Source: Chloroflexota bacterium
Lineage (GTDB): Bacteria > Chloroflexota > Dehalococcoidia > Dehalococcoidales > JAUYDJ01
Assembly (NCBI GenBank): GCA_030690025.1
Contig: JAUYDJ010000172.1
Location: 1-6,968, forward strand
DNA: 6,968 nucleotides
Direction: 5' to 3'
Shown: positions 250-6,659 of the stretch, one piece after another
Position numbering within the stretch: position 1 is the stretch's first letter
How the letters are laid out: every line of letters begins with the position of its first letter
Translations under genes and position numbers: made by a program
Notes under the pieces: generated by a model
What the model saw: the letters and a program-made list of their open reading frames with translations, nothing else
What the model was told of the DNA's origin: nothing
The model's database searches: none

Positions 250-474
250 ATGTCCGAGGAGTTAAATGAGGTTGAGCTGCCCGGCTTGCCCCGCAGCAGT
301 AAAGGTGTTTTCCAGTGGTTAACCTGGGGTGTGGGTGCCCTTGCCTTAGCCGGGGCCGCTGCTCGTCTTGACGATGACTTTGAAGGTGGCAAGATTAAGG
401 AAGAGGTCTACCGCGGGCTGCGCGCCAAGAAGAAGTCGCAGCTAGTGACGCTAATAGAGAACCAGAGAGAATGA
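250..474 (+). CDS. Small one-TM protein with CcmI/SHOCT-like C-terminal segment, first gene of the ccm operon
   Basis: The 74-aa product has an acidic N-terminal tail (residues 1-19), one hydrophobic segment at about 20-38 and a charged C-terminal helix. The segment from about residue 39 (ARLDDDFEGGKIKEEVYRGL) has the pattern 'L..D...G.I.EE.Y..LR...' seen after the membrane anchor in the N-terminal part of CcmI-type proteins and in SHOCT motifs. It has no TPR domain, so it is not a full CcmI. The ATG at 250 is the only plausible in-frame start; its upstream Shine-Dalgarno is poor. The stop codon overlaps the ccmA start (ATGA, 471-474), which argues that it is a genuine, translationally coupled operon member. 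It may be a membrane partner or assembly factor of the CcmABCD complex; that role is inference. The CcmI/SHOCT resemblance was judged by eye and is moderate. Confidence 0.7.
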   Translation: MSEELNEVELPGLPRSSKGVFQWLTWGVGALALAGAAARLDDDFEGGKIKEEVYRGLRAKKKSQLVTLIENQRE

Positions 475-1208
475 CAGCAGATAATGGCAAAGTGAGCCCG
501 GTCTGGGCAATTGACATCCAGGGTCTGACCAAATCTTTCGGTAATAGCCTGGCTCTACGCGGCATAGACTTTCAAGTCGGGCAGGGGGAGTCGGTTGTCA
601 TCTTCGGGCCAAACGGGGCCGGTAAGACCACTTTAATCAAATTACTGGCAAGTATCATGAATCCTACCTCGGGGAAGATTTTGATTAACGGACGGAGTCT
701 TAAGGACAACGCTGAAGAGGTGCGCCGCCAGATTGGGGTCGTTACCCACCAGACTTTCCTTTACAGCCACCTTACCGGCCGCGAAAACCTGGAATTCTAC
801 AGCCGCCTGTATGATGTGCCCCGGCGCCGGGAGCGAATCGACGAGGTAGCCGCCTTGGTGGGTATGAAATCCCGTCTCCACGACCGGGTGGGTACCCTTT
901 CCCGGGGTATGCAGCAGCGGCTGTCCATTGCCCGCTGTTTGCTGCATAGGCCATCGATAATACTGCTGGACGAGCCGGAAACGGGGTTGGACCAGCAGGC
1001 CACTGCTATGCTCTGGCAGGCGCTGTGGTCAGCCGGAGAAAGCCCCACTATCGTCCTGACTACCCACAGCCTGGAGCGCGGGCTGGCGTTGTGTGAACGT
1101 CTGCTAATCTTAGCCTGGGGAAGGATTGCCTACCAGGGGTCAACCCGGGCACTTGGCCTGGACGACCTGAGGCGGACTTACCAGCACTGCGTCGGGATTG
1201 AGCCATGA
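471..1208 (+). CDS. ccmA: Cytochrome c biogenesis heme exporter ATP-binding protein CcmA
   Basis: This is a 245-aa ABC ATPase with all motifs intact: Walker A GPNGAGKTT at 46-54, Q-loop Gln94, signature LSRGMQQR from 143, Walker B IILLDEP at 163-169 with catalytic Glu168, D-loop GLDQ at 172-175 and switch His199. Length, a single nucleotide-binding domain and position directly before ccmB identify CcmA rather than another exporter ATPase. CcmA acts on the cytoplasmic face with CcmB. In characterised System I the CcmAB ATPase is needed to release holo-CcmE from the CcmC:heme:CcmE complex rather than to carry heme across the membrane. The start at 471 overlaps the preceding stop (ATGA), with a GAGAGA stretch just upstream as ribosome site, and the end overlaps the ccmB start by four bases, so the three proteins are probably made in coupled amounts. 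An alternative start downstream would remove part of the first beta strand and is unlikely. Confidence 0.95.
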   Translation: MTADNGKVSPVWAIDIQGLTKSFGNSLALRGIDFQVGQGESVVIFGPNGAGKTTLIKLLASIMNPTSGKILINGRSLKDNAEEVRRQIGVVTHQTFLYSHLTGRENLEFYSRLYDVPRRRERIDEVAALVGMKSRLHDRVGTLSRGMQQRLSIARCLLHRPSIILLDEPETGLDQQATAMLWQALWSAGESPTIVLTTHSLERGLALCERLLILAWGRIAYQGSTRALGLDDLRRTYQHCVGIEP

Positions 1209-1876
1209 GATTCCTGAGTAAGGCCTTAGTTATCACCTGGAAGGACGCTCTCTCTGAGATGCGCACTAAAGAGGTGCTGTCTTCGGTGGTGGTCTTTGCC
1301 CTGCTGGTGATAGTAATATTCAATTTCGCCTTCGGTGCCAGTCAGGAGAAGATGTTGCTGGTAGCGCCGGGTATACTATGGGTAACTTTCACTTTCGCCG
1401 GGATGCTGAGTATCAACCGCGCTTTTATTCCGGAGAAAGAGCAGGGTTGCCTTGAAGGCCTTATGGTGTGTCCCATCAGCCGGGAGGCTATTTACATCGG
1501 TAAGATGCTGGGAAGTCTGCTTTTCATGCTCATCGTAGAAGCGATCGCCCTGCCGATATTCACTTTCCTGTTCAATCTCCCGGTCCTGTCTTTGCAGCTT
1601 GTAGTTGTCACCGTTTTAGCTACGCTCGGATTTGTGGCCGTCGGCACGCTATTCTCGGCGCTGGCGGTTAATACCAAGGCGCGGGAGATGGTGCTGCCCA
1701 TTCTCTTTCTGCCCATTGTCGTCCCGTTAATCATTTCCGCCGTCAAGGCTTCCGAGCTGGCGCTCTCCCGCGAATCGTGGGCTACCCTGGCCTCCTGGCT
1801 TGGGATAATGGGGGCTTTCGACGTTATTTTCTTAGTAGTCTCATTTCTGGTCTTTGCCTTTGTCATCGAAGAATAG
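1205..1876 (+). CDS. ccmB: Cytochrome c biogenesis heme exporter permease CcmB
   Basis: The 223-aa product matches the usual CcmB length and has six hydrophobic segments, at about residues 24-44, 51-70, 101-123, 131-154, 162-180 and 200-220. The cytoplasmic stretch after TM2, ending EKEQGCLEGLMVCPISREAI (76-95), corresponds to the conserved 'E+E.G.L+GLL..P..R..IY.GK' block of CcmB that contacts the ATPase. The C-terminus VFAFVIEE is also typical of the family. It pairs with CcmA in the inner membrane to drive release of heme-loaded CcmE. The start overlaps the ccmA stop (ATGA, 1205-1208). The next gene begins 14 bases after its stop. No truncation or frameshift is seen. Confidence 0.95.
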   Translation: MRFLSKALVITWKDALSEMRTKEVLSSVVVFALLVIVIFNFAFGASQEKMLLVAPGILWVTFTFAGMLSINRAFIPEKEQGCLEGLMVCPISREAIYIGKMLGSLLFMLIVEAIALPIFTFLFNLPVLSLQLVVVTVLATLGFVAVGTLFSALAVNTKAREMVLPILFLPIVVPLIISAVKASELALSRESWATLASWLGIMGAFDVIFLVVSFLVFAFVIEE

Positions 1877-1890
1877 AGGGGAAAGTTAAA

Positions 1891-2586
1891 GTGGGTAAAA
1901 GTTATCTCAGGAACATTCTATCAGCAGTTAGCTTCCTTTTAATGGCAGCCTCTCTGTACATGGTTTTCGTCTACGTCCCCACTGAGGCAACTATGGGGAT
2001 AGTGCAGCGGATATTTTATCTTATGGTGCCGGTGGCCTGGCTATCTTTGCTGTCATTCCTCATAGTCTTTATTGGCAGTATCCTCTACCTGAGAAAAAAG
2101 CAAAGCCGGTGGGACGTTCTCGCTCGCTCTTCTGCCGAAATAGGCATCATCTTTACCACCCTGACTCTAATTACCGGTTCACTCTGGGCCAGGCCAGTCT
2201 GGGGAGTATGGTGGACGTGGGAGCCGCGCCTGACGGCTACCCTGGTCCTCTGGTTTATTTACCTTGCCTATTTCCTGGCACGCTCCCTCGCCGCCGAGGA
2301 GCACCGTGGGGCTACATTTGCCGCGGTAGTCGGTATCCTGGGCTTTGTAGATGTGCCCATTATCGGTTTAGCCACCACCCTCTGGCGGGGCATACATCCC
2401 GGCGCTCTAATCTTCCAGGGTGGGTTGGCACCATCTATGCTATTGACCTTGATGGTCAGCTTAGCCGCCTTCACTGCCCTGTACTCTCTTCTTTTGCTAC
2501 AAAGGATTTCAATGAAGAATGACGAAATCGAGATAAAAAGACTGCTTGGCCTGACGGCTGAACGCCATAACACAGGAGATAGATAA
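1891..2586 (+). CDS. ccmC: Heme-handling protein CcmC (WWD family) with altered axial-ligand site
   Basis: This is a 231-aa membrane protein with about six TM segments. The open frame extends upstream into ccmB, but the GTG at 1891, 10 bases after a GAGGGG ribosome site (1876-1881), gives the usual CcmC length and N-terminus. The tryptophan-rich heme-binding motif WGVWWTWEPRLT spans 104-115. CcmC binds heme at the outer face of the membrane and passes it to CcmE. Known CcmC proteins use two conserved histidines as axial ligands (His60 and His184 in E. coli). The second is present as His169 in LWRGIHPG. At the first, in the block normally reading like 'RI.Y.HVP.AW', the sequence is IFYLMVPVAW with Met45. 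Glu111 also replaces the Asp of the WWD motif. The gene is otherwise intact and lies between ccmB and ccmD, so it is probably functional with a modified heme site, not decayed. CcsA/CcmF relatives are much longer, which excludes them. Confidence 0.93.
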   Translation: MGKSYLRNILSAVSFLLMAASLYMVFVYVPTEATMGIVQRIFYLMVPVAWLSLLSFLIVFIGSILYLRKKQSRWDVLARSSAEIGIIFTTLTLITGSLWARPVWGVWWTWEPRLTATLVLWFIYLAYFLARSLAAEEHRGATFAAVVGILGFVDVPIIGLATTLWRGIHPGALIFQGGLAPSMLLTLMVSLAAFTALYSLLLLQRISMKNDEIEIKRLLGLTAERHNTGDR

Positions 2587-2921: not shown

Positions 2922-2927
2922 ATGACG

Positions 2928-3317
2928 TTGAAACGGCGTAAATTCGTTATCGCGGCGATTATCTTGGTCCTCGCACTTGGCTATCTTGGATACAAAGGTT
3001 TCATGGCTTCAGCCACTTACTACTATGAAGTGAGCGAGTTCATAGGGCAGCAAGACTCGTTTGCTGATAAGAATGTACGGGTTTCGGGTACAGTTGCGAC
3101 TGGAACTATTGAGAAGCAAGGCTCCACCTTGAAATTCACCATAACCGATGGGCAGAAGGACCTGCCGGTAATCTACAAGGGCGTTGTTCCCGATAGCTTT
3201 AAGGCTGGCGGCGAGGCGGTGGTTGAGGGAAAGCTTAATTCAGCGGGCACATTCGAGGCGAAGACACTCCTGGCAAAGTGCCCTTCTAAGTACGAGCCCC
3301 AGCAAACTGGAGGGTGA
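2928..3317 (+). CDS. ccmE: Cytochrome c maturation heme chaperone CcmE, CxxxY type
   Basis: The 129-aa product has a basic N-terminus (KRRK), one TM anchor at about residues 6-25 and an extracytoplasmic OB-fold domain. Family landmarks are YYYEVSEF (31-38), the 'V+VSGTV..G' strand (50-59), FTITDG (70-75), the 'P.IYKG..PDSFK.G.EAVVEG' region (80-101) and the 'F.AKTLLAKC' strand ending at Cys118. The heme-binding motif is C118-P-S-K-Y122, not the His-xxx-Tyr of E. coli CcmE. The cysteine form is known from archaea and Desulfovibrio, where heme is bound through cysteine. CcmE takes heme from CcmC/CcmD and delivers it to the ligase. The preferred start is TTG 2928 (see the ribosome site at 2916-2921); ATG 2922 would add two residues. 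It lies 192 bases after ccmD, and the next gene starts 10 bases after its stop. Confidence 0.93.
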   Translation: MKRRKFVIAAIILVLALGYLGYKGFMASATYYYEVSEFIGQQDSFADKNVRVSGTVATGTIEKQGSTLKFTITDGQKDLPVIYKGVVPDSFKAGGEAVVEGKLNSAGTFEAKTLLAKCPSKYEPQQTGG

Positions 3318-3327
3318 GAAAACTGAT

Positions 3328-3939
3328 ATGGTGAATAGTGAGCTCCAGCCGGAAGCATCGGTTAATGTGTCAACATCTGCAGGAGGCCGGACCGATTCAA
3401 AGAATGGAGTAGGCGGCAGGAAAAGACGGCTAGTCCTGTTCCAGATGGTAATGCTTGCCGCAGTGCTGGGGCTGGTATGGTATGGCTTTGGCCGATACGT
3501 TTTAGCTCCGGTACAGTCATCAGCCGTGCCGCAATATGTCGGGTCGCTGAGACTAGCCAGCCATGTCGAAGGCACGGAGGCCCTGACCGAAATCAACCGA
3601 CTGCATGGCACCAGCATCAGCCTGCAAAACGCATTTATTGCCGAGTATAAGGCTGAATATGGCGGTGACCACTTGACAGTGTGGGCTGGCAATGCCGGAA
3701 GTGACCCGGCGGCGGCAGACCTGATAAGCAGGATGGTCAAGGGCATAGAAAGGGGAGGTACCGGATTCACCAACCTGCGGCAGGTAAAGGTAGCCGGCCA
3801 TGACGTGTGGCAGGCTGACGGAGTCGGCGGCAATTTCTTCTTCTACAAATCTTCGGAGACTGGTGATAGGGTCATCTGGCTCACCATCGAAGGTAGTGAC
3901 AGCGTATCTCTCTTAGAAAGTGCGGTTAGGGTCTTCTAA
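3328..3939 (+). CDS. Membrane-anchored protein of unknown function, last gene of the ccm operon
   Basis: I do not recognise this 203-aa protein. The first 34 residues are polar, low in structure and end in a basic patch (GGRKRRLV, 29-36). One TM helix follows at about 35-54, leaving about 145 residues outside the membrane by the positive-inside rule. The soluble part is mixed alpha/beta-like, with a strand-like C-terminal half (TNLRQVKVAGHDVWQADG, then NFFFYKS and DRVIWLTIEG), and ends in a short helix and RVF. It has no cysteines, so no CxxCH heme site, thioredoxin motif or CcmG/CcmH motif. It sits where ccmF or other maturation genes are often found and follows ccmE by 10 bases, so it is probably co-transcribed. 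The ATG at 3328 is chosen because the frame upstream merely overlaps ccmE; GGAGGG at 3309-3314 is a rather distant ribosome site. A role in heme delivery or cytochrome folding is only a guess from position. Confidence 0.8.
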   Translation: MVNSELQPEASVNVSTSAGGRTDSKNGVGGRKRRLVLFQMVMLAAVLGLVWYGFGRYVLAPVQSSAVPQYVGSLRLASHVEGTEALTEINRLHGTSISLQNAFIAEYKAEYGGDHLTVWAGNAGSDPAAADLISRMVKGIERGGTGFTNLRQVKVAGHDVWQADGVGGNFFFYKSSETGDRVIWLTIEGSDSVSLLESAVRVF

Positions 3940-3948
3940 ACGTTATTG

Positions 3949-6450
3949 TTAGCTGGGAACCGCAACTCTTCTCTGCCAGACCTTACCTGATCTCCCGCCT
4001 TGAAGCACCAGGAAGACCATCATGTAGCAGGCGGCGCCCATCAGGAGCGCGGTGGTAAATCCGAAGGTCATGGCCACGACTATCGTTGCCGTCGAGCCCA
4101 CCACCGAGCCAACCCCGTTAACGCCCCATACCCAGGGGACGTAGCCTTCCATACCGCTCTCTTTCAGCAGCCTCAAACCCAGAGGGAAGGGGAAGCCCAT
4201 CAGAAAACCAAGTGGAACCAAGATGACAATCGTGACTAAAAGGCGCAGGGCCAGTCCTAGGCCCAGAAGTTGCTTAAAGACGAGAGGCAAAGACAAGGCG
4301 TAAATTACCAGCACGAGGACGATAGCCGCAGAGACTGCGGCTATTACTCTGGGTATCCTTTCCGAGGCGAAGTGGTCGCTGTACATGCTGCCTAGACCAG
4401 CCCCTACCAGGAGAGAAGACAGCAGGATGGCCAGCGAGAGCACAGGCTGTCCGAGAAAAAGAACGAACTTCTGGAAAACGGAAATCTCAACCAGCATAAA
4501 GCCTATGCCCAGCATCGAAAAGAACGCCAAGAATCTCAACAGCCTTCCGGCCGAACCGTCACCATACTCTGGCCGAACTTCCCTATCGTGAGGTGTCCTT
4601 CTCCGGCGTATGAGAGGCACCGTTATGAGGACGAGCAGGGTAAGAATTGACAACCATAAAATGACAGATACCGCTAGTGGCGTTCCCTCCGCAAATTTGT
4701 AGAAGAACGGGCTATCATCAGTTGCCGGCCTCAGATCCAGTCCCTGCTCCTTGAAAGCTGACGTCAGGTCATCGAACCTGATGTCTCCCCGGCTCAAGGC
4801 AATCAGTGCCGGGTTGAGCATGCCGCATTCGTCGAAACGCACTCCTTTTTCGTGTGCGGAGCTACCCAGCTTGATGGTCGGTATATAGGATAGGGTCGGC
4901 TCATACCCCAGTTGATGTATTGACTGGTGAATAGACACCAGCTCGGACGGTTCGAAAGGCGTTTTCTTCATCACGAAGACAGGGTAGTGATGCGCGCCAA
5001 TCACGTAGATGCGCTTCATCGCGGCTTCATTACCAATTCCGTTTTGGTTGAGGGCCGCCAGCGAGATAGACAGGAGTTTCAATATCTCACCTGAGTCGTG
5101 GGCCACAACTATCAACTGGCCGTCGTCACTTAGATGTTCCATGTAGTCGTTAATGGAGTCGGTGGTGAACAGGAAATTCTCGGTGAGGGCGTAGCCCTCC
5201 ACACTGCGACTGGTCTTGGTAACGGGCAGGCTGAGCATAATGACATCGTACTTCTCCTTCTGGCGTTTGAGGAAATTCCTGCCCTCATCCACAATCACGC
5301 TGACATTATCCCGGTCATAGATACCGCCATTGTATCGGGAGTATTGGCGCACTATATCTACCAGGTCTTTGTTCACCTCGACGGCCGTTATCTTGCCAAC
5401 GCCGGCCAGCAGCGCCAGTAGTATATCCCGACCCCCGCCCGGCCCGATTATCAGCGCCGTATTCTTCTCTCGCGGGCGCAGGTTCGACAGGGCCAGATAA
5501 GCCGGGAAATCCGTCTTCAGGTTCTGAATTGCAGGTTGCGCAGCGCCAATATCGCCGTTAAACTGGTACATCGGGGTTCCCGCCGTCCCATCCAGAAATA
5601 GGACCATCTGGTCAGGCTGGTTGCGCAGGGCTACCAGGTCGGTGCGGCCAAAAGCGCTCCACTTCGTTTCGACTATTTCTCCACCGAGTGAAGGTTCCTG
5701 AAGAACGTTGGATATCTCCTTGTCCGGGCCTGTCCCGATCGGCACAGCGGCCAGGCCTGACCCAACCAGCACTGTGCCGACCAGGCTAAGTATCATCAAT
5801 ATGCCTGTGGCCGACGTTATGAGCCTTCTGGCGTTAACCCCGCTTGCTTTTATGGCAAAGAGGGCCGCGCCCAGTACAGCGACCACGCTGATGGCGGCAA
5901 TGGTTCTTGAGCCACCAAGTATGTTCAAGATAAGGACTACTGCGAAAGAACCGCTCGCCGCTCCCAGCAGGTCCGCGCCGTAAAGTCTGGAGCTCAGTGT
6001 GGGGAATAGGCGGAATACCCCGGCCAGGAGGACTCCGGCAAAGAAAAACGGGATGAAGAGAAGAGGGACGTAAAAGAGAATACCCACCTCACCAGCTAGG
6101 GAGGCAATTCGGACCATCACTATAAGTGATAGCGGAATGGATAGTGAAAGCAGGCCGGCGAACACGGCTAAAGAGCGGAACCTGTCGTGCCTGCCGGGTA
6201 GCCTGCGCCAGTACAGATGCACAAAGACAGCGCCCAACCCCAGGCCCAGCAAGGCTAGAGATATTACCACGAACACGTAGTGATAGGCGAACATTACGGA
6301 GAGCACCCTGGTGAGGCTTATCTCGAGGGCCAAGAGGCTGAACGACACCAGAAAGATGCCAGCTAGAAGAAGCTTTGACGCACTTCTACCGGGGCGGCTA
6401 TCTTCCGATAGAGTTATGCGATTGTCTCTATTGCTCGCGCTTCCCATCAT
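3949..6450 (-). CDS. Polytopic membrane protein with spermidine-synthase-like SAM-dependent methyltransferase domain
   Basis: This 833-aa protein has three parts: about six or more TM segments (roughly residues 27-235), a soluble Rossmann domain (about 250-585) and a second set of TM segments (about 590-820). The Rossmann part has SAM-binding motif I, IIGPGGGRD (334-342), acidic Glu358 in AVEVN and VDEGR (387-391). This is the 'fused membrane/spermidine synthase-like' architecture. In aminopropyltransferases the strand after motif III carries a catalytic Asp (YDvIi.Ds.DP); here it reads YDVIMLSLPVT (401-411), so polyamine synthesis is unlikely and the substrate is unknown. The two membrane halves resemble each other (LALEISLTRV at 40-49 against MLVEISVFQK at 652-661, each followed by a glycine-rich GLGLG/GAGLG segment), suggesting duplication. 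The frame runs upstream to 6657, but that part overlaps another coding region. The ATG at 6448-6450, after GGTGGG (6460-6465) and overlapping the preceding stop (TAATG), is the better start. Confidence 0.85.
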   Translation of the reverse strand: MMGSASNRDNRITLSEDSRPGRSASKLLLAGIFLVSFSLLALEISLTRVLSVMFAYHYVFVVISLALLGLGLGAVFVHLYWRRLPGRHDRFRSLAVFAGLLSLSIPLSLIVMVRIASLAGEVGILFYVPLLFIPFFFAGVLLAGVFRLFPTLSSRLYGADLLGAASGSFAVVLILNILGGSRTIAAISVVAVLGAALFAIKASGVNARRLITSATGILMILSLVGTVLVGSGLAAVPIGTGPDKEISNVLQEPSLGGEIVETKWSAFGRTDLVALRNQPDQMVLFLDGTAGTPMYQFNGDIGAAQPAIQNLKTDFPAYLALSNLRPREKNTALIIGPGGGRDILLALLAGVGKITAVEVNKDLVDIVRQYSRYNGGIYDRDNVSVIVDEGRNFLKRQKEKYDVIMLSLPVTKTSRSVEGYALTENFLFTTDSINDYMEHLSDDGQLIVVAHDSGEILKLLSISLAALNQNGIGNEAAMKRIYVIGAHHYPVFVMKKTPFEPSELVSIHQSIHQLGYEPTLSYIPTIKLGSSAHEKGVRFDECGMLNPALIALSRGDIRFDDLTSAFKEQGLDLRPATDDSPFFYKFAEGTPLAVSVILWLSILTLLVLITVPLIRRRRTPHDREVRPEYGDGSAGRLLRFLAFFSMLGIGFMLVEISVFQKFVLFLGQPVLSLAILLSSLLVGAGLGSMYSDHFASERIPRVIAAVSAAIVLVLVIYALSLPLVFKQLLGLGLALRLLVTIVILVPLGFLMGFPFPLGLRLLKESGMEGYVPWVWGVNGVGSVVGSTATIVVAMTFGFTTALLMGAACYMMVFLVLQGGRSGKVWQRRVAVPS

Positions 6451-6659
6451 TAAACCAGTCCCACCGGGCTCCGCTTCACCCGGGTAAAGTACACTATGGC
6501 AATCAGGGATGCAGCCAACGTAAGCAGGGCTATTATCTGGGCCTGCTGGAGCCCCCAGAATACGTTCTGCTCTCGAACAAAGGTAAGGGCAAAACTTAGC
6601 GGCATAAGCCAGAAAACAGGTAGCCCTAGTATTGGCATCACTAAGATCAAATGGCACAT
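6450..6659 (-). CDS. Small two-TM protein of unknown function
   Basis: The 69-aa product has two hydrophobic segments (about residues 4-26 and 40-58) separated by a short polar loop (REQNVFWGLQQAQ) and a basic tail (RVKRSP). It begins MCHLILVMPILG, with Cys2 and His3 near the membrane edge. The stop overlaps the start of the methyltransferase-like gene by one base (TAATG), and it starts five bases after the stop of the preceding gene, so the three form a tightly packed operon. The ribosome site (AGGAG at about 6674-6678) is rather far from the ATG. No function is assigned. It is kept over the longer overlapping frame of the next gene because its product is a coherent membrane protein and that of the other is not. 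Confidence 0.65.
   Translation of the reverse strand: MCHLILVMPILGLPVFWLMPLSFALTFVREQNVFWGLQQAQIIALLTLAASLIAIVYFTRVKRSPVGLV

Follow-up and report, generated by a model that had tools for sequence, protein, structure and literature searches.

We uncovered a natural variant of CcmC, the membrane protein responsible for presenting heme in cytochrome c assembly, in which the first axial heme histidine has given way to a methionine. It is encoded in a 6,968-nucleotide stretch of DNA from a Chloroflexota bacterium (hereinafter the window, meaning this whole stretch). Our preferred reading, to which we would give a probability of roughly 0.55, is that P-His1 (His60 of E. coli) was converted to an invariant P-Met1 in a clade of likely single origin, with the heme predicted to lie between Met45 and His169. 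P-His1 of CcmC has been treated as an essential axial ligand; here a Met in its place is both natural and fixed. With such Met-type CcmCs at hand, one can ask directly whether the second axial ligand has to be a histidine; they bear both on how ligand strength relates to the redox state and release of heme and on whether P-His1 is the ligand exchanged while CcmE is being loaded. To our knowledge, Met-type CcmCs have been neither studied by spectroscopy or mutagenesis nor solved with heme bound. The accessible portions of the open-licence PMC literature yielded no description of a Met at His60 or of a CcmE with a CXXCH, and the table of a 2011 review, in the part available, has CcmC without known variants (PMC3601427).

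The available portions of the experimental literature on the E. coli protein report that the H60A and H184A mutations each abolish holoCcmE and cytochrome c, whereas H147A and H174A do not, and that His60 is a heme ligand in one cryo-EM state (PMC9616876; also PMC10457321). In the related CcsBA, P-His1 has been proposed as the exchanged ligand (PMC6299221), and a 2026 study that reports no heme ligands in CcmCD deals, in its accessible part, with four residues near the cytoplasm and not with His60 (PMC13141917).

Its descent, fold, WWD loop and neighboring genes mark the window protein as a CcmC. It matches PF01578 with 107 bits (cut-off 29.9), and its best NCBIfam match is TIGR01191 with 137.7 bits, which lies under the curated value of 186, a cut-off passed in only 8 of 400 genomes of the phylum. 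The predicted model (pLDDT 94.1) finds its best structural matches in 8ce1_C and 7f02_C, with the CcmC fold, the Foldseek alignment to the latter showing 27% identity; the least certain part of the model is the P-His2 loop (pLDDT blocks of 76 and 74). The WWD loop is present, with a Glu in place of the Asp, and the gene is accompanied by ccmA, ccmB, ccmD and ccmE (Table 1). The P-His2 position is occupied by His169; the P-His1 position is occupied by Met45, and going by this residue we file the protein as a CcmC-derived variant, not a standard CcmC. Compared with the System I CcmC of E. coli (PDB 7f02/7f04/8ce1), it differs in having Met for P-His1, Gly for T182 and Thr for V177.

Table 1. Features of the ccm locus in the window and of related loci
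Feature	Location	Strand	Remarks
ccmA, ATPase of the CcmABCD holoCcmE-release complex	471..1208	+	TIGR01189 above cut-off
ccmB	1205..1876	+	PF03379 above cut-off
ccmC, 231 aa, GTG start, WWD family	1891..2586	+	PF01578 and TIGR01191 match
Met45 of CcmC, ATG codon	2023..2025	+	at E. coli His60 (P-His1, axial heme ligand)
WWD heme-edge loop WWTWEPRLT of CcmC, W107-T115	2209..2235	+	
Thr162 of CcmC (E. coli Val177)	2374..2376	+	marks Met clade
Gly167 of CcmC (E. coli Thr182)	2389..2391	+	two residues before P-His2; marks Met clade
His169 of CcmC, CAT codon	2395..2397	+	E. coli His184 (P-His2), kept
ccmD-like small membrane protein, 48 aa	2589..2735	+	TIGR04391 CcmD_alt_fam above cut-off
ccmE heme chaperone, Cys type	2922..3317	+	PF03100 above cut-off
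CPSKY, CxxxY heme-attachment motif of CcmE, C120-Y124	3279..3293	+	
CcmH, overlapping the end of ccmF, own genome	L173 5232-5810		PF03918 84.3 bits, cut-off 25
CcmE paralogue (CcmE2), own genome, contig C114	L173:4217-4612	-	PF03100 65.7 bits, profile positions 11-91 of 99
Further CXXCH-tailed CcmE paralogues	L174-L186, L296, L297		
CcmCs with one extra WWD-loop residue (e.g., WWDWGTPR, WWTWDEPR)	L004, L008, L117, L128, L129, L132, L201		Met-type only

A first-pass annotation, made from the letters alone, had claimed that Met45 stands where CcmC has its first axial heme histidine and that the second ligand is retained. Both points are borne out by alignment, and the former also by the model. 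A shifted alignment concealing another histidine is ruled out by the alignments together with the model match, and a sequencing error by the recurrence of the Met across many assemblies. In an alignment of 126 close sequences, selected for closeness (119 of the 120 listed homologues, the best of 5665 found, plus the window and six named loci, the window's own protein, P0002, having been dropped from the list), Met45 and His169 are each invariant (126/126), and residue 48 varies, being M, V, L, T or A in almost every sequence. His169 is the only His or Cys conserved in at least 95% of these sequences; thus, there is no spare histidine. In a wider set of 207 distinct CcmCs, whose loci were for the most part selected because they resemble the window or match a CcmC profile, and are hence a non-random sample (of the 266 genomes of the phylum with a CcmC match, the 30 best loci were read, plus those met in searches of the class and order), the position of His60 is Met in 23 and missing in one, the back half of an interrupted gene; all others with a readable column have His (183/183). 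The position of His184 is His in 203, missing in three and Ser in one. An Armatimonadetes-labelled CcmC (L077:1169-1726, + strand) keeps His60 and has a Ser aligned at P-His2, the opposite loss.

The codons at the His60 column are CAC (105), CAT (78) and ATG (23); passing from a His to the Met codon takes three base changes, and no intermediate was seen among these. Within the Met clade, the median dN/dS is 0.12 (range 0.04–0.27; 177 of the 253 pairs among 23 distinct DNA copies with finite dS), and its CcmC is under purifying selection. The death of the E. coli H60A mutant (PMC9616876, in its accessible part) would fit a CcmC that is decaying or has been repurposed and no longer feeds CcmE. 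We regard this as highly improbable in light of the low dN/dS, the invariance of Met45 and His169 among the close homologues (the best 120 of 5665 matches), the neighboring ccmA, B, D and E genes, the ccmE-F-H-A-B-C gene runs of relatives and the multiheme cytochrome encoded in the same genome; decay in particular is ruled out by the first two of these. That cytochrome is a protein with seven CXXCH motifs (L334, contig C73), its gene lying beside an ORF that by eye resembles cytochrome b, and c-type cytochromes are therefore expected in this organism; the Cytochrome C554 family has no match in its genome.

In a maximum-likelihood tree computed with the His60 column masked (141 CcmC rows, 130 of them different, some contigs being present in both of two collections; three rows were excluded before counting, namely a duplicate of the window and one short fragment each of G499 and G424), all 27 Met rows form one clade (SH-aLRT 98), implying one change, and its nearest sisters (L010/G438, support 85) carry His. 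Hence, the swap from His to Met likely arose once. The named members of the clade are Chloroflexota and Dehalococcoidia records. Among the 61 genomes of the window's order (Dehalococcoidales) with a readable CcmC, 21 are of the Met type and 40 of the His type, and, in the part of the 147 genomes of the class with a match that was read, Met was also found inside the class and outside the order in G171 and G544. The presence of both states within the families f8, f114 and f117 had suggested several independent origins of the Met, which the single clade in the gene tree contradicts; transfer or loss would explain this scatter. In G171, an intact Met-type ccmC lies on one contig, and a His-type ccmC with an in-frame stop is found at L292:5777-6478 (+).

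The 23 Met-type and the 183 His-type CcmCs are set apart at just three columns, if a separating residue is taken as one present in at least 90% of one group and at most 15% of the other: 45 itself, 162 and 167. Column 162 is T in 21 of the 23 Met-type sequences (His-type: V 81, I 55, A 22, T 14) and column 167 is G in 22 of the 23 (His-type: T 103, S 49, G 12, D 7); they lie seven and two residues before P-His2, respectively. Additionally, 7 of the 22 Met-type CcmCs with a readable WWD loop carry one extra residue in it, versus 0 of 176 readable His-type ones, with an eighth case, L124, recognized by eye only. The CcmE-docking residues of CcmC are described as sitting just before His60 in the available part of one study (PMC6204919). 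In the window protein, the equivalents of E. coli Asp47 and Gln50 are Glu32 and Met35, and Arg55 is kept as Arg40.

What does the Met do? Methionine thioethers are weaker, easily displaced ligands that favor ferrous heme. In the mechanism we favor, heme would arrive via CcmCD and dock at the WWD loop, His169 taking one of its faces and the thioether of Met45 the other. The weaker Met45 ligand would make it easier both for a vinyl group to be attached to the Cys120 thiol of CcmE and for the ligand to be exchanged while CcmE is loaded, after which CcmAB would free holoCcmE and the heme would go to CcmF/CcmH, with all four heme histidines of CcmF in place. The swap would thus retune how CcmC holds heme and passes it on. 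The main rival is a His-only site, in which P-His1 was simply lost and Met45 is a hydrophobic filler, the heme being five-coordinate via His169 or taking a sixth ligand from Tyr124 of CcmE or water. We consider this possible, if on the unlikely side. It accords with the E. coli structures, in which, according to the accessible accounts, heme is seen either with just His60 or in a loosely bound state lacking this ligand (PMC9616876, PMC10457321), and with the placement of both other marker changes next to P-His2, as if that side had taken over. However, one would expect a filler to be exchanged for Leu, Ile or Val over time, in the manner of residues 44 and 48, whereas Met45 is constant across all 126 aligned sequences (the best 120 of 5665 matches with the window and named loci) and the 23 distinct DNA copies. 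Constancy this strict speaks against Met45 being just a filler, though it does not establish ligation.

In His/Met-ligated cytochromes c, His occupies one heme face and Met the other, the very ligand set predicted for Met-type CcmC; however, the heme of CcmC is transient and not covalently held. The WWD-family heme lyases CcsBA and CcmF are described, in the portions of the literature available, as having P-His pairs and TM-His pairs (PMC13141917, PMC6299221); the window CcmC, in contrast, has a Met at one P position and, besides His169, retains only H138 and H226. System I* of Desulfovibrio and archaea combines a Cys-type CcmE with the lack of CcmH, according to the accessible part of the 2011 review (PMC3601427), and the window likewise has a CxxxY CcmE. 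Nevertheless, assignment to System I* is ruled out because the genome has a CcmH gene (Table 1); moreover, the Desulfovibrio-labelled CcmCs compared keep P-His1. CcmH relatives are also present in the gene runs of the Met clade. The four heme histidines of CcmF, at positions that we take from their motifs, are all present in 66 of 67 distinct sequences (72 rows including copies from overlapping loci), the remaining one being gapped at one of them, and are kept in all 13 CcmFs assignable to Met-type systems, including that of the window's genome.

The first-pass annotation had further proposed that Met45 and a Cys-type CcmE form one co-evolved heme hand-off. The adjacent CcmE is indeed of the Cys type, and part of the expectation holds across the order, where the classical CcmE tail could be read in 19 of the 21 Met genomes and is always CxxxY. 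The tails read in 30 of the 40 His genomes, however, also all have the Cys (28 CxxxY or CxxxF, two with a changed end); for the remaining ten His and two Met genomes no classical tail was retrieved, though at least three of the ten (G438, G476 and G498) have a CcmE match. The same is seen in the 80 named loci: the six with Met comprise five with CxxxY and one without CcmE in the locus, while the 74 with His include 52 with CxxxY and one with CxxxF (53 in all) versus only four with HxxxY, one cut tail and 16 without CcmE in the locus. Thus, a one-to-one rule is contradicted, and Cys-type CcmE is no marker of the Met clade; only two weak CcmE columns, 31 and 105, part Met from His genomes. Given also that a single Met clade is nested among His-type sequences mostly of Cys-type systems, we hold a joint co-evolved change to be improbable. 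As the Cys type is also the norm with His-type CcmC, it most likely came first and the Met later, once, inside a Cys background. Since most of the Cys-type systems examined keep His60, the Met is not needed for the Cys chemistry; conversely, a Cys-type CcmE may have been a precondition for the Met.

We also recovered a second CcmE in the window's genome, CcmE2, encoded in the same gene run as ccmF, ccmH and a zinc-ribbon gene. Its predicted model (pLDDT 84.5) best matches the CcmE structures 8ce8_E, 1lm0 and 1sr3; however, CcmE2 has lost the CxxxY tail and terminates in a CXXCH, with CKACHG as its last residues. Such a motif lies at most six residues from the C-terminus in 116 of the 120 relatives listed, out of 181 found with a 13-sequence query. 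These paralogues add what looks like an unexpected intermediate between a heme chaperone and a cytochrome c. Within the order, CcmE2 is found in 11 of the 21 Met genomes and none of the 40 His genomes, absences being blurred by the incompleteness of metagenome-assembled genomes; it also occurs in two of the seven genomes of the order with CcmE read and CcmC not found. A strict link is opposed by its absence from the other 10 Met genomes and from G171, by G545 and G564, which have CcmE2 with no CcmC listed, and by G546, with a His-type CcmC, in which a high-scoring relative runs into the contig end before its tail. With a single Met origin, the association rests on one event and permits no comparison of independent ones. 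One could still conceive of a clade with a rebuilt heme relay, in which a His/Met CcmC passes on ferrous heme and CcmE2, itself a c-type cytochrome, serves as a heme or electron relay at CcmFH; we rate this as speculative and rather unlikely.

The gene order also varies among these systems: the window has ccmA-B-C-D followed by ccmE, with ccmF and ccmH on another contig, and the relatives L005–L011 have ccmE-F-(H)-...-A-B-C. Downstream of ccmE, the window encodes an ORF of 203 aa (3328-3939, +) without a Pfam or NCBIfam match, relatives of which recur in other genomes near CXXCH-tailed CcmE or near CcmE elsewhere. It is followed on the opposite strand by a gene for a large membrane protein with a spermine/spermidine synthase domain (3952-6489, -), a relative of which lies near ccm genes in L174.
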